A stretch of 8,756 nucleotides of DNA from Planctomycetota bacterium (GTDB lineage: Bacteria > Planctomycetota > Phycisphaerae > WQYP01): positions 1 to 8,756 of the forward strand of contig JAJZGH010000215.1 in assembly GCA_021798635.1 (NCBI GenBank). Reading direction: 5' to 3'. The translations under genes and the position numbers were made by a program. Positions 1 to 8,756 of the stretch are shown piece after piece (positions within the stretch are counted from its first letter, which is position 1; every line of letters begins with the position of its first letter). A model generated the notes under the pieces. That model did no database searches, was not told where the DNA came from, and was given only the letters and a program-made list of their open reading frames with translations.

Positions 1-578
1 GCAGCATCCGCATTATCCCGGGGCATCATCCACATGGCGAAAACAAACGGCAGGCCCGTCAGCAATTTCCATTGCTCGCCCAGGTCAAGTTGAAATGGAT
101 AATCTTTTTCCGCCGGCGCCCCGTTGACCACCTTATCACCGATTAGTAGTAGCGTTTGTGCATCAGCCGGCGGCGGGTCGTACATATTGGCGGGCAATAG
201 TTCGGGAGCGCGGTTATAAAGTTCCCGCAAAATGACCTGTGCCAGAATAACACTGGTGTGGCTGTCGGTATCGGCATACAGATGCGTTATTTCATGCGCG
301 GGCACTTTGGAAAAAATCCGCACCGTCAGGGTTGGCCCGTTACAACAGATCGCACCGCCCGGGGAAAGTATCACTGGTACCGGGCAATTTTGATAATCGA
401 CGATCGGCATGAGGGCCGCATCCACTTGCCGGGCGGCCATCAGGTCCACCAGCCGCGCGGGAACCGCGAAGTGAACTTCCACGTCCGGCCGATCCACCAG
501 CGGATCAATCAGCGGCTTGGAATTCAGATAAGAAACGCACCCTACCACAAAACGTTTACCTGGAGCATATTGAGGCAC
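1..578 (-). CDS. mqnA: Chorismate dehydratase MqnA (partial, 3' end beyond window)
   Basis: MqnA converts chorismate to 3-enolpyruvoyl-benzoate, the first step of the futalosine pathway to menaquinone; it is a cytosolic enzyme with a periplasmic-binding-protein-like fold. Translation of the minus strand gives 192 residues before the window edge. Family hallmarks are VGCVSYLNSKPL (residues 12-23), the DTDSHTS stretch (104-109), LLIGD (144-148) and DLGEQW..LTGLPFVFAMW (165-183). The start is a GTG at 576-578, chosen because AGGAG lies 6 bases upstream and the conserved N-terminus begins a few residues later. The usual length is about 270-290 residues, so roughly a third is missing only because the window ends. 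No fluoride aptamer precedes it, so it is probably not part of the fluoride regulon, although it lies downstream of crcB on the same strand. Identity is confident. Confidence 0.93.
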   Translation of the reverse strand, partial: MPQYAPGKRFVVGCVSYLNSKPLIDPLVDRPDVEVHFAVPARLVDLMAARQVDAALMPIVDYQNCPVPVILSPGGAICCNGPTLTVRIFSKVPAHEITHLYADTDSHTSVILAQVILRELYNRAPELLPANMYDPPPADAQTLLLIGDKVVNGAPAEKDYPFQLDLGEQWKLLTGLPFVFAMWMMPRDNADA

Positions 579-625
579 GTACAACTCCTGTGTTTGCCGA
601 CATTAACAGTGGCAATAGTATTATG

Positions 626-683
626 CAGTATAAATCAGTATTGGGCAGTATTGGGCAGTATTAAATCAGTATTAAATCAGTAT
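626..683. repeat. Helically phased CAGTATT tandem repeats upstream of mqnA
   Basis: Six consecutive copies of a CAGTAT-starting unit are visible at 626, 636, 646, 656, 667 and 678, with periods of 10, 10, 10, 11 and 11 bases. The units alternate between CAGTATTGGG and CAGTATTAAAT forms. Read on the minus strand this is a run of AATACTG elements ending about 50 bases upstream of the mqnA GTG start, and it contains several TATACT/TAATACT strings that resemble -10 boxes. One repeat per DNA helical turn would suit cooperative binding of a regulator, but slippage-generated repeats are an equally simple reading. I cannot choose a promoter inside it. Confidence 0.7.
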
Positions 684-690
684 CCAGCGG

Positions 691-712
691 AAGCGATCCC
701 GCGCGGGGGCTT
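691..712. other. GC-rich hairpin after the DUF190 gene, possible terminator without U-tract
   Basis: AAGC (691-694) and GCTT (709-712) flank a CCC-GCGC-GGG core, giving an imperfect hairpin about 30-50 bases past the DUF190 stop codon. On neither strand is it followed by a clear run of T, so it is only a weak candidate for the end of the crcB transcript. Confidence 0.25.
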
Positions 713-740
713 AACAGGGGTACTCTTGAGTGAAAATAAT

Positions 741-1511
741 TTACGGTGCGGTTTTCTTCGCTTCATCGGCAGGATTATGGCGATACATGACAATGCGAAC
801 CTCTTCCATCGTGATCATGCCATCCCGCACCATGGTGTCCAGAAATGGCAGTAATTTTTCAATTTTGTCGCGGGCGTCCACAATTTCAATGACAATCGGC
901 AGGTCGGAGGACATTGCCAGCACACGATCATTATGGATCACACTGTTGGCACCAAACCCCATCGAGCCTTGCAACACGGTGGCCCCGCTGATGCCCAGTT
1001 CGCGTGCTTTCTTAACGATGGCCTCGTGAAGCGGTTGGCGTTCAAAGCTGTCAGATTCACCAATGAATATCCGCAACAAAACGCCGGTGGAATCGGTGTG
1101 CATGTTCAATACCCCTTGAATATCAGGCAATGTGCTTAAGGGTTTAATTCCGCTTAACAGTTGGCTCTGGTTGTGTGCTTCATGTTCGCCGGTACGGTAC
1201 ATCACCACACCGGCCCGTTCCAGTGTGGCCAAGCCGTGCTGCACAATTTTTAAGGAAATATCGCGAAGAAATGCCGTGATCTTATCGCCGTCATCCACGC
1301 ATTCAACAATGACTGGAGAATCTCCCACGAGTTTGAATTCGCTATGGCTTATAAGGCCGCGGGATCCAAAGCCCATGATGCCTCGTAACACCGTTACGCC
1401 TGACAGTTTATGCTTGGCCGCCTGCTGCACAACACGCTCATAAGCCGGTGCGAAATGATAAAGATCCGCACTTCGCATATAGAGTCGCAGGAGAACTTTT
1501 TCGCCGATCAT
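741..1511 (-). CDS. Tandem DUF190 (PII-like fold) protein
   Basis: The product is about 256 residues and consists of two DUF190 domains, whereas the usual family member is a single domain of about 110 residues. Domain 1 covers roughly residues 1-107, with GVTVLRGIMGFGSRG and SPVIVECVDDGDKI. Domain 2 covers about 140-246, with GATVLQGSMGFGANSVIH and LPIVIEIVDARDKI. Each ends in an MYR string (VVMYR, IVMYR). DUF190 proteins are recurrent neighbours of crcB and have a PII-like ferredoxin fold, so a ligand-sensing or channel-modulating role is plausible but unproven. I prefer the ATG at 1509-1511, with GGCGGA 7 bases upstream. A TTG at 1524-1526 would add five residues. It lies about 28 bases after the crcB stop, in the same transcript, and so should be fluoride-inducible through riboswitch 1. 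Confidence 0.9.
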   Translation of the reverse strand: MIGEKVLLRLYMRSADLYHFAPAYERVVQQAAKHKLSGVTVLRGIMGFGSRGLISHSEFKLVGDSPVIVECVDDGDKITAFLRDISLKIVQHGLATLERAGVVMYRTGEHEAHNQSQLLSGIKPLSTLPDIQGVLNMHTDSTGVLLRIFIGESDSFERQPLHEAIVKKARELGISGATVLQGSMGFGANSVIHNDRVLAMSSDLPIVIEIVDARDKIEKLLPFLDTMVRDGMITMEEVRIVMYRHNPADEAKKTAP

Positions 1512-1539
1512 TTGTTTATCCGCCAATATACATCCGTCA

Positions 1540-1926
1540 CTAACTCATGCGCTGACCAAGAATAACACCCAGGCGCACCGCGATGATGCCAATCATGACG
1601 CTGCCAAGAATGTAGAGCATTCCGCGAACCGCCTGCCCTTCACTTAGCATTCGATCCGATTCAAACATATACGTTGAAAAGGTGGTGTAGGCACCCACGA
1701 AACCCACGGCAATGCCCAGGCGGATCGGATCGGGAATATTCATCCGGGGTTGGGCCCAGGTCAGAAACCATCCGAGAATGAAACATCCGGTGATATTGAT
1801 GAAAAATGTGCCAAATGGGAACAGTGCAGAGAACCGACCGAACAGCCGGGCGATACCATAACGGGCCATGGCACCAAAGAATCCGAAAGCCCCGATCGAC
1901 AGCCAAATCAAAACTGCTTTTTTCAC
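1540..1926 (-). CDS. crcB: Fluoride ion channel CrcB/Fluc
   Basis: CrcB/Fluc forms a dual-topology dimeric channel in the inner membrane that lets fluoride leave the cell. The protein is 128 residues, the normal length, with four hydrophobic segments. Visible motifs are GAMARY (18-23), FGTFFINITGCFILGW (38-53) with the pore Asn at 44, and GFVGAYTTFSTY (75-86). In the last motif the first Phe of the usual GGFTTFSTF is Tyr (residue 80), while the second Phe (83) is kept. The start is GTG at 1924-1926, with AGGA 8 bases upstream. The longer reading from ATG 1992 would run through the riboswitch terminator and its U-tract, encoding an implausible RGFFVFV string. ATG 1935 has no room for a ribosome site. 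It is the first gene after riboswitch 1, and a DUF190 gene follows. Confidence 0.95.
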   Translation of the reverse strand: MKKAVLIWLSIGAFGFFGAMARYGIARLFGRFSALFPFGTFFINITGCFILGWFLTWAQPRMNIPDPIRLGIAVGFVGAYTTFSTYMFESDRMLSEGQAVRGMLYILGSVMIGIIAVRLGVILGQRMS

Positions 1927-1956
1927 GCCGTACATCCTGCCATGGATCACGAAAAC

Positions 1957-1988
1957 AAAAAAACCCCGATGGATTATCTCCGCCGAGG
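1957..1988 (-). terminator. Intrinsic terminator of riboswitch 1 expression platform
   Basis: In the RNA, GACCUCG (1990-1984) can pair with CGGGGUU (1968-1962), with an inner GGA/UCC stem (1981-1979 with 1973-1971) and a GAUAA loop. The next transcribed bases are a run of seven U (1963-1957). This sits between the fluoride aptamer and the crcB start, as expected for a transcription-terminating riboswitch that is relieved by fluoride. Confidence 0.65.
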
Positions 1989-2003
1989 TCACAACAATAA
2001 TCC
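1971..2003 (-). promoter_or_regulatory. Candidate antiterminator stem of riboswitch 1
   Basis: GGAUUAU (2003-1997) is perfectly complementary to AUAAUCC (1977-1971), a 7-bp stem that encloses the 5' arm of the terminator and consumes its inner 3' strand. It is therefore mutually exclusive with the terminator hairpin. How the aptamer state is passed to this stem is not obvious; a small hairpin, GCGA-AUGAAG-UCGC, lies in between. Confidence 0.45.
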
Positions 2004-2019
2004 CAGCGACTTCATTCGC

Positions 2020-2072
2020 CAGGAGTCATCAGTTCCGGAAAACCGGAACGGTTCAGGTGAACTCCATCACCC
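2020..2072 (-). promoter_or_regulatory. Fluoride riboswitch 1 (crcB motif), upstream of crcB
   Basis: The aptamer fits the crcB-motif fold base by base. P1 is GGUG/CACC (2071-2068 with 2059-2056), followed by the loop A-U-G-GAGUU. The second stem is a perfect 7-bp GUUCCGG/CCGGAAC (2049-2043 with 2038-2032) with a UUUU loop. The conserved 3' strand CUGAUGACUCCU spans 2032-2021. The pseudoknot pairs GGAGUU (2065-2060) with GACUCC (2027-2022). In Thermotoga petrophila numbering the key bases A6, U7, G8, U38, A40, U41, G42 and U48 are all present. It is followed by a terminator and crcB. Confidence 0.95.
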
Positions 2073-2086
2073 TTAAACACAGAGAC

Positions 2087-2116
2087 ATATTAGCCGATGA
2101 CGCGCCTCAACGTCAA
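2087..2116 (-). promoter_or_regulatory. Sigma70-type promoter of crcB-DUF190 unit
   Basis: On the minus strand TTGACG (2116-2111) and TAATAT (2092-2087) are separated by 18 bases, each close to consensus. Transcription would begin near 2080, about 8 bases before aptamer 1, exactly where a riboswitch leader should start. Confidence 0.75.
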
Positions 2117-2178
2117 ATCTCGCCAACATCTCGCCAAAGTTCCACGGGACGCAGAGTTTCGTAACGCGGCAGTCCGAC

Positions 2179-2206
2179 TTAAAACGTCACGGCGTTCTCC
2201 CGTGAG
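2179..2206 (-). terminator. Weak terminator candidate at end of MutS-like operon
   Basis: CACGG and CCGTG flank a 7-base loop that overlaps the stop codon of the second MutS-like gene, followed by ACGTTTTAAG with only four T. It is a modest candidate; read-through toward the crcB unit on the same strand is possible. Confidence 0.3.
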
Positions 2207-3752
2207 TGCTGCCCCCCACGGTCAACGGCTCCATTTTTCCGCCGCCGGCGATCTCATGTCCGCCAAATATCCGCTCATACAGATCAGCGCCGAAACTTGT
2301 CTGCAAAGGTTGGCCGGGAAGCAGCTTAAAGGGGCGTGAGCCATCAGTTCCTCTTTCGGCCTTGAGAAACAGGACGTTGCTCTCCGGGCCTTTCCAGAAA
2401 CTACTGGCAAATTCGTATAAATGTGTGATGAAGAAAACTTTCACGTGAGCCTCCAACAGCGCGTTGACAATCTGTCTGGCGATTTCGGATCCCTCCAGTT
2501 CATTGGTCGCCGCGAAAGATTCATTAAACAGCAGTATCGAATTTGGAACCAGCATATCGGCGATATGACTCATACGGGAAAGTTCCTCGGCAAATTTTCC
2601 GCTGGCCATGGTGGCGTCTTCTTCATGTTTGTAATGGGTGAACAGACCGCCGCATATCTCCGCTTCAAACGCTTCCGCTGTCACAAACATCCCCGCCTGC
2701 ATCATGAGCTGGGCCACGCCGATGCCACGCAGAAAAGTTGTTTTGCCACCCTGATTGGCACCGGTGATGATCACAAGACTTATTCCATCGGCGTCTAAAC
2801 CATTCCCGACCACGTTTCGGCCTGTGTGCAGGATCAGACAAATATCGCATAAGGACACCGCTTGACGGATTGCTGATCCGATTGCTGCGGGAGCGGGAAA
2901 ACATACCGGCACCTCCATTGCCGCAAGTTTGCGGTGCAGGTTCACGCAGCCCAGATAAAACGCCAACTCGGTTTGCAGCGTGACAAAAAAACTCTGGATG
3001 TGGTCGGCCGACTGTGCCACCGCATTGGCCACCTGATTGATCCCCCGATCCCGCAGGTCGGAAAATGCCCTGGCCCCCGCCTCATCGCGTGGATGAATGC
3101 GAATGGTCAGGGCACGCGGCTTTTTGGAAAACAGACGGCCCAGCCAGGACCGGCGCGGATCCGGGGTTTTGCGTAATACGTAATGGATTCCCTGATTTTC
3201 GTCCCCCAATCCGGCGCTTACCAGAACACCCCGCCTGAATTGAAGATCCTGGAGATCATTTTTAATCCGGCCCGAATATTCTTCCGTTAATTCTGTTTTT
3301 ATTTGGTCAAATAGAGCCTTAAATCCCTCTGAATTAAAGGCGTCAGAATGGCCATCCGCCAAGCCTCTCAACCTGTCAAGCAGACCGGTTAACATCCGCA
3401 AATGGCCAATTGCGTCTGATAAAATGCCGCCGGGATACCGGCTGAAAATCCCCAACCAATGCTGTTGCTTGCTGTCGGTGGCTTCGCGTGCCAGATCATA
3501 AATACATTTGACAACGGGATAGTGCCGCAGACAATCCTGCAGAACCGCCTGGCGGTAAAGGATCGTTTCCAGATCATTATATACGCCGGTTACAATGGCC
3601 TGTCGGGCTGCCTGATATACGAATTCATCACCAGCGGCCATGGCCTCAAACAAAATGGGCAACTCCAGATCCCGCGTCAAAGCATCTTCATTGGGCGGCT
3701 TTTTTTCTCCGGCATGGAGGTCACGATCACGGAACATCAAATGCACTTTCAC
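2187..3752 (-). CDS. Short MutS-like ATPase B (MutS core/ATPase domains only)
   Basis: The product is 521 residues, with a C-terminal MutS-family ABC ATPase. Walker A is TGANQGGKTT (about 330-339), the signature region is ASGKFAEEL (383-391), Walker B is SILLFNE (405-411), the D-loop is AATN (414-417) and the H-loop is ITHLYEF with His 444. The N-terminal half is helical, like a MutS core/lever region. There is no recognisable mismatch-binding domain with its Phe-x-Glu motif, and no Smr or nuclease domain, so classical mismatch repair is unlikely. The Walker B Asp is replaced by Asn (FNE instead of LDE). I chose the GTG at 3750-3752: GGAGG sits 8 bases upstream, and the start overlaps the previous stop as GTGA. 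The ATG at 3776 would give 529 residues with no good ribosome site. It probably acts with the preceding ATPase A. Confidence 0.85.
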   Translation of the reverse strand: MKVHLMFRDRDLHAGEKKPPNEDALTRDLELPILFEAMAAGDEFVYQAARQAIVTGVYNDLETILYRQAVLQDCLRHYPVVKCIYDLAREATDSKQQHWLGIFSRYPGGILSDAIGHLRMLTGLLDRLRGLADGHSDAFNSEGFKALFDQIKTELTEEYSGRIKNDLQDLQFRRGVLVSAGLGDENQGIHYVLRKTPDPRRSWLGRLFSKKPRALTIRIHPRDEAGARAFSDLRDRGINQVANAVAQSADHIQSFFVTLQTELAFYLGCVNLHRKLAAMEVPVCFPAPAAIGSAIRQAVSLCDICLILHTGRNVVGNGLDADGISLVIITGANQGGKTTFLRGIGVAQLMMQAGMFVTAEAFEAEICGGLFTHYKHEEDATMASGKFAEELSRMSHIADMLVPNSILLFNESFAATNELEGSEIARQIVNALLEAHVKVFFITHLYEFASSFWKGPESNVLFLKAERGTDGSRPFKLLPGQPLQTSFGADLYERIFGGHEIAGGGKMEPLTVGGSTHGRTP

Positions 3753-5299
3753 GGATTGAGCCTCCGGCTGAGCCATTGGTAAGTTACCCGATGCTTCTCG
3801 GCAATTGCCAAGGCATAGGCCAGTCCGTCTGCGGGCTTTCTTTCGATGCGATACGTGCGCAATACCGGATTTTCGGTCACGATAGCCGCGACCATGCTGA
3901 CGGTTTTCTCATTCAATCGTGAAAGTTCATCGAGAAATGTCACACAAACGCCCAGAACATCAAGTTCAGATAGACGTTGCATGATCTTTTTACCCAGATA
4001 CAGCCCGTCCTCCACGCTGGTAGAGGAGAATATTTCGTTCATGATGATAATACTGCTCCCCGTGGCCTCCTGAAGAATCCGATGAATCCGGATCAGATCA
4101 TCCTGCAGCTTACCATGCAGTGTTGCGATATCTTCTGTTTTTTCAAAATGGGTAAACAGACGGTCACAGAGAAAAATGCGAGCCTCGGCCCCGGGAACCG
4201 GATATCCAAGGCTTGCCAGATAATGCAACTGCCCGAACATGCGGGCAAAGGTCGTCTTTCCGCCCTGGTTCGGCCCGGAAATAACACATATTCTTTCGCA
4301 GCCCTTCAGGCTGAAATCATTGCGGACAACCATGGAGCCTTCGCGGATAAGTTTCCCGGCCAGCGCCAAATCAAATGTTTCACGGCCGCTTATATGCTTA
4401 TCCGTGGCTGAAACATCGGGATAGCAGAACTGCAATCCTGCCCGTTTGAATACTTCGGCGTATTCGTGAAAGGCCACGTAAAACTGTATCTCCCGGTCAA
4501 ACACAACAATCACATCATCGAGAAAATCGACGTGTTTTGCGCAGAAAAGATCCAGGGATTTGAATACATCAGGGTTCAGCGCCGCCACCCGGTCCAGTAT
4601 CTGCGCTTCAATATGATTCATGCCCGAGGAATCCGGTAGTTTGACTTTATAATCCTTGGCCGCACCTTGCTTGAACTTCTCGAATGTCTTCTCAATGACT
4701 TCACCATAGTCAATGTCGGAATCATCATTTCGCACGGTGATCCAGCCGTCACCAAGCACCAGGCTATACTTGATGGCGGAAAGGTCGGTACGCAGTTGTG
4801 CTGAATGGCGGCCAAGCGTTTCGAAGTCACCGGAATGCAAATATTGCTGCAGATACGTATAGAACGCCCGAAGGCCGGGTGAATTTACCCCGGTCTCATG
4901 CAGATCGCGGCACAGCTGTAACACCGCACGGCAGTAAATTTCGACAGCGTGCAGAAAATAGCCCTGTTGATAGTACTTGTAGGTTGGTTTTTGCCATGCC
5001 GCAAGATGCATACGCACAGAACGCATCTGCTGCGAAAATGATTTGATGCCCGTAAAAAGAGAGTGATTTTCAAGTTCAAGCATAACCGCTTGACGATACC
5101 GCACTTGGGCGGGATTGGTCAGGCGCGTGTAATAAAGTGGAAGAAGATTATATTCTTCGCGTCCGGATGTAATGGCACCAACAATTTGGTCGAGATTCAG
5201 ATCACGGAAATACGCCGGTGGCTCAATTGTTATCGGGGTGCGTTCGTCGTTCGATGGCTCAAAGAGAATGCTGCGGAAGTTCGTGGGTAAATTCTGCAT
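3749..5299 (-). CDS. Short MutS-like ATPase A, with degenerate ATPase motifs
   Basis: The product is 516 residues of the same build as its neighbour: a helical N-terminal half and a MutS-type ATPase at about 335-500. Walker A is intact, SGPNQGGKTT (341-350). Other positions depart from the family: the signature serine region reads LHGKLQDDL (394-402), Walker B is IIIMNE with Asn 421 for Asp, the D-loop is SSTS (425-428), and the H-loop histidine is Phe 455 (VTFLDEL). It looks like the less active half of a pair whose partner keeps the signature Ser and the His. No mismatch-recognition domain is seen. The start is ATG 5297-5299 with GGUGG 6 bases upstream, 30 bases after fluoride aptamer 2. 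Gene B follows through a GTGA overlap, which suggests stoichiometric synthesis and a hetero-oligomer. The cellular role is unknown. Confidence 0.85.
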   Translation of the reverse strand: MQNLPTNFRSILFEPSNDERTPITIEPPAYFRDLNLDQIVGAITSGREEYNLLPLYYTRLTNPAQVRYRQAVMLELENHSLFTGIKSFSQQMRSVRMHLAAWQKPTYKYYQQGYFLHAVEIYCRAVLQLCRDLHETGVNSPGLRAFYTYLQQYLHSGDFETLGRHSAQLRTDLSAIKYSLVLGDGWITVRNDDSDIDYGEVIEKTFEKFKQGAAKDYKVKLPDSSGMNHIEAQILDRVAALNPDVFKSLDLFCAKHVDFLDDVIVVFDREIQFYVAFHEYAEVFKRAGLQFCYPDVSATDKHISGRETFDLALAGKLIREGSMVVRNDFSLKGCERICVISGPNQGGKTTFARMFGQLHYLASLGYPVPGAEARIFLCDRLFTHFEKTEDIATLHGKLQDDLIRIHRILQEATGSSIIIMNEIFSSTSVEDGLYLGKKIMQRLSELDVLGVCVTFLDELSRLNEKTVSMVAAIVTENPVLRTYRIERKPADGLAYALAIAEKHRVTYQWLSRRLNP

Positions 5300-5307
5300 G
5301 GCCGGCC

Positions 5308-5331
5308 ACCGATCCTGAAGTCAGTTTCGGT
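5308..5331 (-). promoter_or_regulatory. Possible ribosome-site sequestering hairpin of riboswitch 2
   Basis: ACCGA (5331-5327) can pair with UCGGU (5312-5308), with an inner CUG/CAG stem. The 5' arm uses the last two bases of the aptamer and the 3' arm takes the GGU of the GGUGG ribosome site of MutS-like gene A. No U-tract is present, so translational control is favoured. This is inference from pairing only. Confidence 0.35.
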
Positions 5332-5388
5332 AGGAGTCATCAGCGCGGCCTGCGAAGTAGCCCGCATTTTCGGCGAACTCCATCGCCG
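5330..5388 (-). promoter_or_regulatory. Fluoride riboswitch 2 (crcB motif), upstream of MutS-like pair
   Basis: P1 is CGGCG/CGCCG (5388-5384 with 5375-5371), enclosing the loop A-U-G-GAGUU. A GC-rich second stem spans about 5364-5343 and includes GCG/CGC and GGC/GCC with one bulged G. The 3' strand is CUGAUGACUCCUAC (5343-5330). The pseudoknot pairs GGAGUU (5381-5376) with GACUCC (5338-5333). A6, U7, G8, U38, A40, U41, G42 and U48 all match the known fluoride-binding core. The first start codon is 30 bases downstream. Confidence 0.95.
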
Positions 5389-5389
5389 A

Positions 5390-5409
5390 GTGACGAAAAC
5401 GTTCGTCAC
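5390..5409. repeat. Perfect 8-bp inverted repeat at the start of the MutS-like transcript
   Basis: GTGACGAA and TTCGTCAC are perfect complements around a 4-base centre. The element lies between the -10 box (5413-5418) and aptamer 2, so it covers the expected transcription start. It could be an operator or a 5' stabilising RNA hairpin directly abutting aptamer P1. Confidence 0.6.
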
Positions 5410-5412
5410 ATG

Positions 5413-5441
5413 ATTACAACTATATCTGTTTCACGTGCCAA
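5413..5441 (-). promoter_or_regulatory. Sigma70-type promoter of MutS-like operon
   Basis: On the minus strand TTGGCA (5441-5436) and TGTAAT (5418-5413) each match consensus at five of six bases and have the optimal 17-base spacer. The start site would be near 5406, just ahead of riboswitch 2. Confidence 0.7.
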
Positions 5442-5450
5442 AGCAAATTG

Positions 5451-5478
5451 GCCCGGTTGAATTGATACTCCGCCGGGC
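5451..5478. repeat. GCCCGG/CCGGGC inverted repeat between divergent promoters
   Basis: Two 6-bp arms (5451-5456 and 5473-5478) are separated by 16 bases and placed between the leftward -35 box (5441) and the rightward -35 box (5501). It could be a shared operator, though chance is not excluded for arms this short. Confidence 0.3.
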
Positions 5479-5500
5479 GTCGTCGTTTCAACTGACTGAT

Positions 5501-5529
5501 TTGACTATTAGATAATCCGGGGATATTGT
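5501..5529 (+). promoter_or_regulatory. Sigma70-type promoter of phosphoesterase-enolase-hyf unit
   Basis: TTGACT (5501-5506) and TATTGT (5524-5529) are spaced by 17 bases. The start site would be near 5536, about 5 bases before aptamer 3. The -10 box is weaker than the -35 box. Confidence 0.65.
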
Positions 5530-5540
5530 CCATACATCGC

Positions 5541-5594
5541 AGGTGGTGGAGTCCGCCTTGAAACCGCTTCTGTTCTGGAAGCCAATGACTCCTG
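5541..5594 (+). promoter_or_regulatory. Variant fluoride riboswitch 3 (crcB motif), upstream of phosphoesterase-enolase
   Basis: The fold is AGGUG/CGCCU P1 (5541-5545 with 5554-5558), loop G-U-G-GAGUC, a second stem GCUUC/GAAGC (5566-5570 with 5578-5582), and a 3' strand CCAAUGACUCCU (5582-5593). The pseudoknot GGAGUC (5548-5553) with GACUCC (5587-5592) is fully Watson-Crick, better than in the other two copies. Relative to them, position 6 is G instead of A, 38 is C instead of U and 39 is A instead of G. U7, G8, A40, U41, G42 and U48 are kept. It lies right after a promoter and 58 bases before the first start codon. The freed 3' strand CUCCU (5589-5593) could pair with the AGGGG ribosome site (5642-5646), suggesting translational control. 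Confidence 0.85.
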
Positions 5595-5651
5595 AGGCAT
5601 GGTTTGGCTGTGCTCAGGTTGGTGAATTGGTCCAAGGGAACAGGGGTGTCC

Positions 5652-6362
5652 ATGCGGATTATGCTCATTTCAGATGTACATGCCAATCCTTGGGCGCTAA
5701 AGGCCGTGGCCGAAGATGCGGGGGATGTCGATCACATTCTGTGTGCCGGTGATTGCGTTACGTATGGTACGCGCCCGGCCGAGGTAATCGCATGGCTGCG
5801 AGAGCGCGGAGCCATTACAGTGCGGGGAAATCATGATGACGCGGTAGCTTTTAATCATCATCCGCGCGCGGCCCCTGCCAAAGCGCATTTGGCGCTGACC
5901 TTGCGTGACTGGACACAGACGAAACTTGAAGCGGCACAGATTCAATGGCTGGCGCGGTTGCCGCTGATTATTACATGGGAAATATCCGGGGCGCGGTTTG
6001 TGATGGTTCACGCCACGCCACCCGATCCGCTGTACGACTATCGGCTCACGCCCAACGCCCCGCATTCTATCCTGACCGAAACGCTGACGGGTTTTGAAGC
6101 GGATTTTGTGGTTCTGGGCCACACGCATCTCCCCTTTATACGAAAGCATAACCGAATGACTGTGGTTAATCCCGGATCCGTCGGGCAACCGCTGGATGGT
6201 GATCCGCGAGCGGCCTACGCTATCTGGGAGGATGGTGAAATTACATTGCATCGCGCAGCGTATGACCATCGGGAATTAATCAGCACCCTGGATGAATTGG
6301 CTTTAACGGATGATCTGTACTGCAGCTTAAGGCGATCCTTTGAACTTGGAAGAATGATTTAG
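5652..6362 (+). CDS. Calcineurin-like metallophosphoesterase
   Basis: A 236-residue single-domain protein with the full metal-site set of the superfamily: DVH (Asp 8, His 10), GD (Asp 34), GNHD (Asn 60, His 61), His 120 in VMVHATPP, and GHTH (157, 159), followed by the NPGSVGQP motif typical of the YfcE/MJ0936-like branch. Members hydrolyse phosphomono- or phosphodiesters using two divalent metals; the substrate here cannot be told. No signal peptide is visible, so it is probably cytosolic. The start is the ATG at 5652, with AGGGG 5 bases upstream. An in-frame TTG at 5604 lies in the riboswitch leader and is rejected. It is the first gene after riboswitch 3 and is 25 bases from enolase, so it should be fluoride-controlled. 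Confidence 0.9.
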   Translation: MRIMLISDVHANPWALKAVAEDAGDVDHILCAGDCVTYGTRPAEVIAWLRERGAITVRGNHDDAVAFNHHPRAAPAKAHLALTLRDWTQTKLEAAQIQWLARLPLIITWEISGARFVMVHATPPDPLYDYRLTPNAPHSILTETLTGFEADFVVLGHTHLPFIRKHNRMTVVNPGSVGQPLDGDPRAAYAIWEDGEITLHRAAYDHRELISTLDELALTDDLYCSLRRSFELGRMI

Positions 6363-6387
6363 TTGATGTGACACAGGAGTATTTCCC

Positions 6388-7683
6388 ATGACTGGAAAAA
6401 TAACCCATGCCCGTGCTGTTGAGATTCTGGATTCGCGCGGCAACCCCACGTTGAAGGTGTATGTCACGCTTTCCTCTGGAGTCACGGGCGCGGCGGCGGT
6501 TCCTTCCGGTGCATCCACGGGTGAAAATGAGGCGGTGGAATTACGTGATGGGGACGCCCATCGGTATGGAGGTAAAGGCGTTTTGATTGCGGCAGAAAAT
6601 GTCAACAGCCGAATATCTCCCAGGATTACGGGGATGGAGTCGCACAACCAGGCTGAATTGGATCGCACGCTGTGCGAACTCGATGGAACGGATAATTACA
6701 GCAAACTCGGGGCCAATGCGATACTGGGAGTTTCCATGGCCGTAGCGCGGGCGGCGGCAGCGCAATCCGGGCAGGCGCTGTATGAGTATCTCGGCGGCGC
6801 GTCGGCGTGCACGCTTCCGCTACCGATGATGAATGTCCTCAACGGGGGCAAACATGCGGCCAATAGCGTCGATTTCCAGGAATATATGATTGTTCCCCTT
6901 GGAGCACCCAACTTTGCGGAGGCCTTGCGCTACGGTGCGGAAACGTACCATGCTCTGGCGGCTATTCTGCGCAATCGGGGATATGCAACCGCCGTGGGCG
7001 ATGAAGGCGGTTTTGCCCCGAACCTCACGAGCAACGAAGAGGCGTGTGAACTGCTGGTGGAGGCCATCACGCATGCCGGGTATGAGCCGGGGGCGGATGT
7101 GGCAATAGCGATTGATCCTGCGGCGAGTTCGTTTTACATCAAGGGGGAATATGATTTGAGCCGGTCCGGTCAAGGCCGCCGCACTGCCGAAGAAATGTGC
7201 CGACTCTATGAGTCGTGGGCGAATAAGTACCCCCTGGTCTCCATCGAAGACGGGTTTGCGGAAAATGACTGGGAAGGGTTTCAGGCGCACACGGCGTCGT
7301 TGGGTGCAAAGATTCAGATTGTCGGTGATGATATCTATGTGACCAATACCAAATTTATCCAACGTGGTATCGCCGCCAAAGTCAGCAACGCGGTGCTCAT
7401 TAAACTCAATCAAATTGGTACTGTAACGCAGACTATCGAAGCCATTACACTATGCCGCAAAGCGGGCTGGAATTTTATTATTTCTCATCGTTCCGGTGAA
7501 ACAGAGGATGCGTTTATCGCCGATTTTGCTGTGGCGATGGGCGGGGGGCAAATTAAAACCGGTGCCCCGTGCCGCAGCGAGCGGGTAGCAAAATATAACC
7601 GACTGCTGGAAATAGAACTGGAATTAGGATCCAAGGCCAAATTTAAGAATCCGTTCAAAGTTCAGGCAACTCCGGCGAGATAA
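6388..7683 (+). CDS. eno: Enolase (phosphopyruvate hydratase), fluoride-riboswitch-controlled
   Basis: Enolase interconverts 2-phosphoglycerate and phosphoenolpyruvate in glycolysis and gluconeogenesis. The protein is 431 residues, full length. Catalytic and metal residues are all present: the mobile loop PSGASTG (39-45), His 156, Glu 165, Glu 206 (GDEGG), Asp 243, Glu 287 (IEDG), Asp 314 (VGDD), Lys 339 (LIKLNQIG), ISHRSGE (365-371) and Lys 390 (GQIKTG). Small departures from E. coli enolase near the active site are NGGKHAAN for NGGEHADN and GDDIYVTN for GDDLFVTN. AGGAG lies 8 bases before the ATG. Enolase is strongly inhibited by fluoride with phosphate and magnesium, which explains its place behind riboswitch 3. 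Whether this is the only enolase of the genome or an inducible second copy cannot be seen here. Confidence 0.97.
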
Positions 7684-7700
7684 GGTAAGCTACAGACATT

Positions 7701-8651
7701 ATGGTACGGATGATACTGTTCAATCTGATCCAAGTCGCGGTGGTGATGTTTTTGTCACCCTTGGGGGTGGGCATTTTGAATCGACTCAAAGAGCGTGTGG
7801 CCGGCAAAAAAGGCTCCAGCATTTTTCAGACCTATCGGGATATATGGAAACTTTTTCATAAAGACCAGATACTTTCCAGTGAAAGCACCTGGATTTTCCG
7901 GGCAACGCCTTATGTCTGCTTTGCGGCACCGATTCTGGTCACGATGCTGATTCCCGTGCTTACAAGCTATCCGCTATTTTTTGCGTTCATGGGGGACATG
8001 ATCGGCGGCGGCTTTGTTCTGGCGCTGGGTGGATTTTTCGCCACGATTGCCGCAGTGGACACCGCCAATCCCTACGGAGCCATGGGCGCCAGCCGCACGC
8101 GCATGGTGGGTTTCCTGGCCGAGCCGGTGTTTATGGTGGTGTTTTTTACGGTCTGCTTCGTGGCGAATTCGACAATTCCCTACATTGTGCAGCAGAAATG
8201 GGTGCATCCCGAATCCAATTTCTTCAACCCCGCGCATATTCTTGTGGCGGTGGCTTTTTTTATGCTGATTCTGGCGGAGACCGGGAAAATTCCAGTGGAT
8301 AATCCATCGGGTCATTTTGAACTGGCCATGATTGACGAATCCAAGTCCCTGGAATATTCCGGCTCCGGGGCGGCGTTGATGAAATGGGCCGGCAGCATGA
8401 AGTTCATTGTGCTTCTGTGCATTTTTCTCAATGTTCTTATTGCGCCGTGGGGGCTGGCATCGGGGACCGCTTTGGGCGACGTGCTTTTGGCAATACCGCT
8501 GATATTTATCAAAATCCTGATGGCTATAGGGGTGATCGTGATCGTGGAAAGTTCGCTGGCTAAGTTGCGACTTTTCCGTATTACCGCGTTTTTGGGCCTG
8601 GCGTTTGTGGTGGCGGTGGCCGCCGTGCTGACGCGGATGATGACCACCTGA
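7701..8651 (+). CDS. hyfC: HyfC/HycD-type membrane subunit (NuoH family)
   Basis: A 316-residue integral membrane protein with about eight hydrophobic segments. It belongs to the complex I subunit 1 family, in its hydrogenase-4/formate-hydrogenlyase branch. FQTYRDIWKLFHKDQI (42-57) matches the QDYRDIHKLFKR pattern of HyfC rather than the GPNRVGP pattern of NuoH. AETGKIPVDNPSGHFELAMIDE (192-213) and LEYSGSGAALMKW (217-229) are the branch's cytoplasmic-loop signature with conserved Glu residues. Such subunits link the hydrogenase-like arm to ion-translocating subunits. It starts 17 bases after the enolase stop. No good ribosome site is seen for ATG 7701; ATG 7710 is an alternative. A hyfB-like gene usually precedes hyfC and is absent here, so the module may be reduced or rearranged. 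Confidence 0.88.
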   Translation: MVRMILFNLIQVAVVMFLSPLGVGILNRLKERVAGKKGSSIFQTYRDIWKLFHKDQILSSESTWIFRATPYVCFAAPILVTMLIPVLTSYPLFFAFMGDMIGGGFVLALGGFFATIAAVDTANPYGAMGASRTRMVGFLAEPVFMVVFFTVCFVANSTIPYIVQQKWVHPESNFFNPAHILVAVAFFMLILAETGKIPVDNPSGHFELAMIDESKSLEYSGSGAALMKWAGSMKFIVLLCIFLNVLIAPWGLASGTALGDVLLAIPLIFIKILMAIGVIVIVESSLAKLRLFRITAFLGLAFVVAVAAVLTRMMTT

Positions 8652-8669
8652 TCGGGGAAAGGTACGGCG

Positions 8670-8756
8670 ATGACTCCGGATAAAGTTGCATGGATTCATG
8701 AACTGATTCTGCTGGTGGCGGGCTTTTTTCTGCTATGCAGTTTCGGGCTTATCGCG
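8670..8756 (+). CDS. hyfE: Probable HyfE-like small membrane subunit (partial, 5' end only)
   Basis: Only 29 codons are in the window. They start at ATG 8670 after GGGGAAAGG and 18 bases past the hyfC stop. The peptide has a short polar start (MTPDKVAWIHE) followed by a hydrophobic segment (LILLVAGFFLLCSFGLIA). The position directly after hyfC, and a first transmembrane helix of this kind, fit HyfE, the NuoK-like subunit of Hyf-type complexes. The identification rests mostly on gene order and is tentative. Confidence 0.55.
   Translation, partial: MTPDKVAWIHELILLVAGFFLLCSFGLIA

Follow-up and report, generated by a model that had tools for sequence, protein, structure and literature searches.

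Fluoride riboswitches of the crcB-motif class (RF01734) have been described together with a recurring set of neighbouring genes. Among these neighbours, mutS and formate hydrogenlyase are listed in PMC2864571, and enolase and formate hydrogenlyase in PMC11139923, as had been suggested in an earlier note on the DNA analysed here; the latter paper also counts formate hydrogenlyase with the enzymes most often controlled by fluoride switches. In E. cloacae FRM, a genomic island carries a riboswitch operon that is induced by fluoride (ppaC, uspA, eno, gpmA and crcB among its genes), and knockouts showed that it gives resistance to fluoride (PMC5533749). Such neighbours and a fluoride-resistance island are already in print. 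Here we describe a stretch of 8,756 nucleotides from a Planctomycetota bacterium (contig JAJZGH010000215.1, positions 1 to 8,756; hereafter the window), in which three fluoride riboswitches, R1, R2 and R3, head a crcB-DUF190 unit, a pair of MutS-like genes and a phosphoesterase-enolase-hyf unit. We consider the window very probably to be an island of fluoride-response genes in a planctomycete of the Phycisphaerae type, with proposed modes of switching and proposed outputs. New are the Asn-Glu Walker B motif of a MutS-like pair without mismatch region, the absence of [NiFe] ligands from relatives of the hyf genes, and the place of the enolase in a fluoride-linked clade.

Results

The RF01734 covariance model was searched over the whole window (gathering score 34), and three hits exceeded the gathering score, the next-best Rfam family reaching only E 0.73:

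2013..2080, minus strand, fluoride riboswitch aptamer R1, upstream of crcB-DUF190 (49.4 bits, E 1.5e-11)
5324..5396, minus strand, fluoride riboswitch aptamer R2, upstream of the MutS-like pair (46.3 bits, E 1.6e-10)
5533..5601, plus strand, fluoride riboswitch aptamer R3, upstream of phosphoesterase-enolase-hyf (34.5 bits, E 1.1e-6)

The hits enclose the three aptamers proposed earlier, with none at background, and the covariance check suggested for them thereby came out in their favour. A model of our own, built from 40 aptamers and with all three of the window as training members, gave 55.4, 51.9 and 43.8 bits for R1, R2 and R3, respectively. The strand AUGACUCC is present in all three alike; the alignment confirms GACUCC as their common pseudoknot strand, paired with GGAGU(C/U)C, and by alignment and pair counts the tertiary pair is conserved or compensated. 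This contact, which we take to be A6-U38 as numbered in the crystal structure from T. petrophila, is G-C in R3 where A-U is usual. Among 128 aptamers, the two columns hold A/U in 120, G/C in 5, U/A in 2 and A/C in 1 (kinship ignored), and the G-C version of R3 recurs in four others. The borderline R3 is backed by these data, because its deviating tertiary pair is compensated.

Conservation was surveyed in the best 80 of 149 loci, drawn by similarity to the MutS-like protein B only, and the 80 genomes concerned were scored for RF01734 at E 1e-3. As baseline, 199 random Pseudomonadota genomes were scored under stricter filters, excluding the centre genome, which has 13 switches under both filter settings. 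The setting proved conserved: 77 of the 80 genomes carry switches (40/40 and 37/40; 71 over the cut-off), as compared with 32/199 in the baseline (28 over the cut-off), and three or more were found in 52/80 (upper median 4, maximum 20) versus 0/199, the baseline maximum being two. Full-length MutS-like A (>600 bits) was found in one of the 199 baseline genomes, which has two switches, one of them lying some 2 kb ahead of the gene. The switch counts in the two sets indicate that the MutS-like pair marks fluoride-rich regulons. The earlier expectation that finding all these neighbours together would be unusual did not hold, in view of the 52 genomes with three or more switches and of locus L051, which unites enolase, the MutS-like pair, DUF190, crcB and hyfC inside 18 kb with switches among them. 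For the gene of MutS-like A (mutSA), a switch lies 600 bases or less upstream in 39 of 74 loci, six of the 80 having been left out because their upstream sequence was too short or their hits were weak.

R2 and R3 point away from each other across a gap of 139 bases. Based on 128 hits of the model at E 0.05 or better from 55 of 81 sources, 20 such divergent doublets were counted (gaps 68-175 bases), with no tandem and no convergent doublets within 300 bases, while 1000 random placements of the switches gave a mean of 1.7 doublets and a maximum of 8. Among the matches listed in our literature search, there was no paper on either divergent fluoride switches or the MutS-like pair.

The gene contents of the three units had been proposed from the sequence alone, and Pfam and NCBIfam agree with them:

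1540..1935, minus strand, crcB (Fluc fluoride channel; TIGR00494 94.2 vs 80.45; PF02537), alternative start GTG at 1992
741..1526, minus strand, tandem DUF190 (PII-like) protein (PF02641, two stretches)
3749..5299, minus strand, MutS-like ATPase A, 516 aa (PF00488; predicted model with pLDDT 89; alignments)
2187..3776, minus strand, MutS-like ATPase B, 529 aa (PF00488), paralogue of A
5652..6362, plus strand, YfcE-type metallophosphoesterase (PF12850; TIGR00040 over cut-off)
6388..7683, plus strand, enolase (TIGR01060 632.8 vs 300; tree support 97/91)
7701..8651, plus strand, HyfC/NuoH-like membrane subunit (PF00146, NADHdh)
8670..8756, plus strand, start of a hyfE-like gene, first 29 codons, cut by the end of the window (short local alignments to HyfE N-termini)

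CrcB passes the Fluc family cut-off (TIGR00494), the MutS-like genes A and B overlap, and a phosphoesterase also stands behind a switch in L069 and in L029, where it is split into two pieces. The MqnA fragment of the organism shares 93% identity with its nearest database protein, and the second nearest (90%) bears the name Phycisphaerae, which makes a Phycisphaerae planctomycete the probable host.

For the leaders, a promoter scan gave 14 sigma-70-like sites in the window against 9.8 +/- 3.5 in shuffles. Each aptamer had been thought to follow its own promoter, which is borne out by suitably placed sites for R1 (2116-2087, minus strand) and R3 (5501-5529, plus strand) but not for R2, whose nearest site (5532-5504, minus strand) lies about 110 bases upstream. 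Four hairpins follow the aptamers:

2001..2024, minus strand, terminator-like hairpin T1 with imperfect U tract UUAUUGUUGU (terminator scan)
1957..1989, minus strand, terminator-like hairpin T2, situated between R1 and crcB, with pairs in 1989-1963 followed by a U run (folding, letters checked)
5306..5333, minus strand, post-aptamer hairpin of R2, starting in the pseudoknot strand (folding, letters checked)
5591..5618, plus strand, post-aptamer hairpin of R3, stable, overlapping the pseudoknot strand, without U run (folding)

Strand exchange between pseudoknot and terminator is the usual mechanism of fluoride switches (PMC13273304), and the 5' arm of T1 overlaps the GACUCC strand of R1. Excluding the pseudoknot strands from folding removed the outer pairs of T1 next to the U tract and left its inner pairs likely. 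T2 is stronger than T1 and is predicted in both states of the R1 leader. Antitermination of T2 through a GGAUUAU-AUAAUCC pairing was considered and dropped (pairing probability 0.01). An in-frame GTG at 1992 stands just before T2 and a GGGA lies within the 3' arm of T1; translation from this GTG as a way past T2 is only an idea. The hairpin of R2 contains GGUGG directly before the ATG at 5299, and is for that reason likely to be a platform that sequesters the ribosome site, which would mean translational control.

The MutS-like proteins A and B are related to each other (hhalign probability 100, E 9e-41), and MutS_V is the sole Pfam match over the cut-off in each. The earlier reading of a MutS-like pair stands as regards the MutS core and MutS_V, but the label of a mismatch-repair MutS does not: the mismatch-recognition and connector region is missing, the predicted model aligning to residues 260-772 of E. 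coli MutS only, and the Walker B motif is Asn-Glu (N421-E422 in A, N418-E419 in B). Asn-Glu is found in 72/72 A and 79/79 B sequences of the alignments of relatives and across the 120 database relatives of A listed (118 by pattern, 2 by eye), as opposed to Asp-Glu in ten MutS, MutS2 and KamC genes of the same genomes. A and B score 82.3 and 58.5 against the MutS equivalog cut-off of 480, and the pair scores 63.5 and 59.6 against 400 for endonuclease MutS2 (TIGR01069). Judged by sequence, the pair is not mismatch-repair MutS. By the same comparison, its Asp-to-Asn replacement is the change of the E. coli MutS mutant D693N, the Mg coordination of which has reportedly been the subject of a study. 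Membership of the KamC reactivase family (NF052383) was rejected (66.8 and 50.2 vs 300). Besides the pair, each of 14 genomes scanned has two long MutS/MutS2-type frames (783-938 aa). A viral origin of the pair was looked for in viral contigs, where none of 15 pattern matches is a relative. One relative of A, P0058, begins with a stretch that has a precomputed match to the N-terminal domain of enolase, which suggests an adjacent or broken in-frame enolase.

The HyfC of the window is 68-73% identical to that of 12 of the 80 genomes, and the operons of the relatives fetched run hyfC-hyfE-hyfF-hyfG-hyfI-hyfF2, although not every gene was recovered at every locus. With HyfC relatives split into 48 at E 1e-60 or better and 27 weaker ones, a same-strand RF01734 hit lies within 600 bases upstream of at least 34 of the former, one of these resting on an aptamer-model hit, versus at least three of the latter, both counts being lower bounds. 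The large subunits (30 rows, 26 distinct) were taken from hyf operons of the 80-genome set, most with a switch upstream, and also include L080 and the second operon of L095, which have none. The best match of the large subunit in the Protein Data Bank (PDB) is E. coli HycE, the alignment to which is the sole positive control for the following reading. At the L1 site, HycE has RVCGICGFAH where the aligned large subunit has ERFSGIAAFAH; CxxC is found in 0/26 distinct subunits at L1 and in 0/24 of those reaching the C-terminal L2 site, and the two CxxC in the row of L098 lie far upstream of the domain. The iron-sulfur cluster cysteines of the small subunit are mostly kept, though not in L035 and L073. 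None of the genes labelled in the operons of L096 and L097 (hyfC to hyfF2) is a formate dehydrogenase, the scan being confined to the operon. Ehr complexes combine group-4-hydrogenase-like and antiporter-like subunits and have no Ni/Fe-coordinating residues (PMC6349859). Since the complexes of the relatives have subunits of both kinds and none of the Ni/Fe ligands, they are, as read from their sequences, Ehr complexes by this definition, and the window's own complex would be Ehr-type through the orthology of its HyfC. Of the formate-hydrogenlyase-type genes proposed earlier, HyfC and the HyfE-like start hold, and the name of a hydrogenase appears wrong for the relatives, whose large subunits have no active-site cysteine pairs. 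The supposition that switchless HyfC-like loci are true hydrogenases failed, as the 13 contrast loci (L131-L143) are also without CxxC at L1 and L2; missing ligands alone therefore do not mark the fluoride-linked complexes. Judging by these contrast loci, hydrogenase-like complexes devoid of a [NiFe] site seem to be widespread in these genomes.

Enolase was searched in 30 of the 80 genomes, and 22 of them gave at least two matches. In a tree of 48 rows, where a copy counts as fluoride-linked if a model hit lies no more than 10 kb away or if it comes from L130 (a switch-rich contig), the window enolase belongs to a 12-row clade of fluoride-linked copies only (support 97/91), and of the 18 copies fetched from other places 16 form a separate clade (100/99). 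Eight more fluoride-linked enolases lie outside the clade of the window, which implies that enolase was recruited more than once. The catalytic motifs are intact and align to PDB enolases. A fluoride-specific change of the active site was rejected, the motifs looking normal in a motif comparison made without residue statistics; they are in line with an extra supply of enzyme over a known resistant site.

Two further gene families were noted in the comparison set. Dynamin-family GTPases (PF00350, Pfam-confirmed) account for 14 genes in predicted units behind fluoride riboswitches at 10 of the 80 loci (L009, L011, L016, L019, L022, L055, L058, L065, L077 and L080), none of them in the window, and the literature search gave no paper joining 'fluoride riboswitch' and 'dynamin'. 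DUF6062-like proteins occur in fluoride-switch operons at L028:13275-13904 and L029:11556-12221.

Discussion

The earlier view of a dedicated fluoride island is supported by three riboswitches heading three transcription units. From the computed aptamers, gene identities, conservation, missing [NiFe] ligands of the relatives, Walker-B Asn-Glu and enolase clade, we infer a fluoride response, modes of switching and physiological roles as follows. Intracellular fluoride, with Mg2+, would stabilise the three aptamers sharing the GACUCC strand. At crcB-DUF190, fluoride would withhold the strand that completes the overlapping T1, giving transcriptional control, with T2 behind it; at the MutS-like pair, it would probably free the ribosome site held in the hairpin before the ATG, a translational mode; and for phosphoesterase-enolase-hyf the platform may be the hairpin overlapping the pseudoknot strand. 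As outputs, CrcB/Fluc would export fluoride, the extra enolase would replace the fluoride-poisoned Mg enzyme, an Ehr-type complex without [NiFe] site would pump ions across the membrane, and a heteromeric MutS-core ATPase without function in mismatch repair would be the fourth.

Several observations weigh against this picture. The 80 genomes span many phyla and the more strictly filtered baseline is Pseudomonadota only; 35 of the 74 mutSA have no switch directly upstream, and none was among the matches listed for 14 of the 48 close HyfC relatives. In the leaders, the inner pairs of T1 persist with the pseudoknot strands held out, T2 is not accounted for by a simple switch model, and in full-leader folds the accessibility of the ribosome sites, that of R2 included, is the same whether or not the pseudoknot strands are held out. 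The organism's own hyfG falls outside the window. Finally, R3 exceeds the cut-off by just 0.5 bit (34.5 vs 34) and has no recognisable U-run terminator, as could be expected if it were a chance or decayed match and only two switches were working. We regard such decay as very improbable, given an E value of 1.1e-6, the compensated tertiary pair with the same G-C in four other aptamers, and its place in a divergent doublet, an arrangement counted 20 times.

It is tempting to speculate that the MutS-like pair is a fluoride-dedicated remodeller of poisoned targets, the Asn of Walker B adapting the site for Mg-nucleotide to a cytoplasm loaded with fluoride, and that hyf encodes a [NiFe]-less Ehr pump restoring membrane energetics after entry of HF; we put this forward tentatively, as somewhat short of an even chance. 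A role in DNA maintenance, as a short MutS-like clamp that meets fluoride-linked DNA damage, was suggested by the first crcB-motif paper, which lists mutS under DNA repair (PMC2864571), and would fit the MutS_V domain and the MutS core fold. It seems unlikely to us in view of the missing mismatch and connector region, the Asp-to-Asn change in both subunits and the two long MutS/MutS2-type frames elsewhere in each of the 14 genomes. The pair could instead be an ATP-driven reactivase of Mg-fluoride-trapped enzymes (e.g. enolase or pyrophosphatase), comparable to KamC for lysine 5,6-aminomutase, since KamC is the best NCBIfam match of B and also matches A, both below the cut-off, and since the pair is heteromeric and paralogous and has an enolase within about 310 bp on the same strand at 8/80 loci. 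That proximity may, however, reflect a shared regulon only, the scores are far under the KamC cut-off, KamC has Asp-Glu in Walker B, and a Walker-B change in E. coli MutS abolishes its ATPase (PMC3848065), so that a reactivase is also improbable, if worth keeping in mind. Action on ribosomes, like that of MutS2 on collided ribosomes, would sustain translation under fluoride, but with MutS_V alone over the Pfam cut-off in both proteins the extra MutS2 domains are not seen, and we give this role a rather slim chance. If the remodeller and the Ehr pump are true, two long-standing labels of the fluoride regulon, MutS repair and formate hydrogenlyase, are replaced.

What makes the island interesting is the conservation of its architecture, together with two members of the regulon that seem to be misnamed: a supposed DNA-repair pair and a supposed hydrogen-making complex that may be unexplored fluoride-tolerance machines. 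These borrowed names have been in the literature since 2010 and are now testable, and the right ones alter the assays for how bacteria survive intracellular fluoride, including strains for organofluorine chemistry. The statement on formate hydrogenlyase in PMC11139923 may need revision, at least for this lineage.

In comparison with known systems, the pair shares the MutS core fold and ATPase with MutS2 and KamC, from which it differs as adjacent paralogues with Walker-B Asn-Glu that score under all family cut-offs. The operons of the relatives resemble E. coli formate hydrogenlyase (7z0s, PMC9474812) in the HycE match and in the NuoH-like and antiporter subunits, but lack both the CGIC at L1 and the pair of C-terminal cysteines; they resemble Ehr complexes in their group-4-hydrogenase-like and antiporter-like subunits without Ni/Fe ligands, the difference here being the position behind a fluoride riboswitch. 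The literature search gave no paper combining 'fluoride riboswitch', 'MutS' and 'enolase'. Island GI3 of E. cloacae FRM (PMC5533749) likewise has a fluoride-switch operon with crcB and enolase; it has one switch, and the operon of six genes behind it includes pyrophosphatase, uspA and gpmA, while the word 'MutS' is absent from the main text. With the published fluoride regulon (crcB motif, RF01734; PMC2864571 and PMC11139923) the window shares the aptamer and the neighbours crcB, mutS, formate hydrogenlyase and enolase, but it differs in holding three switches in 3.6 kb on both strands, and the labels MutS and formate hydrogenlyase fail in detail.

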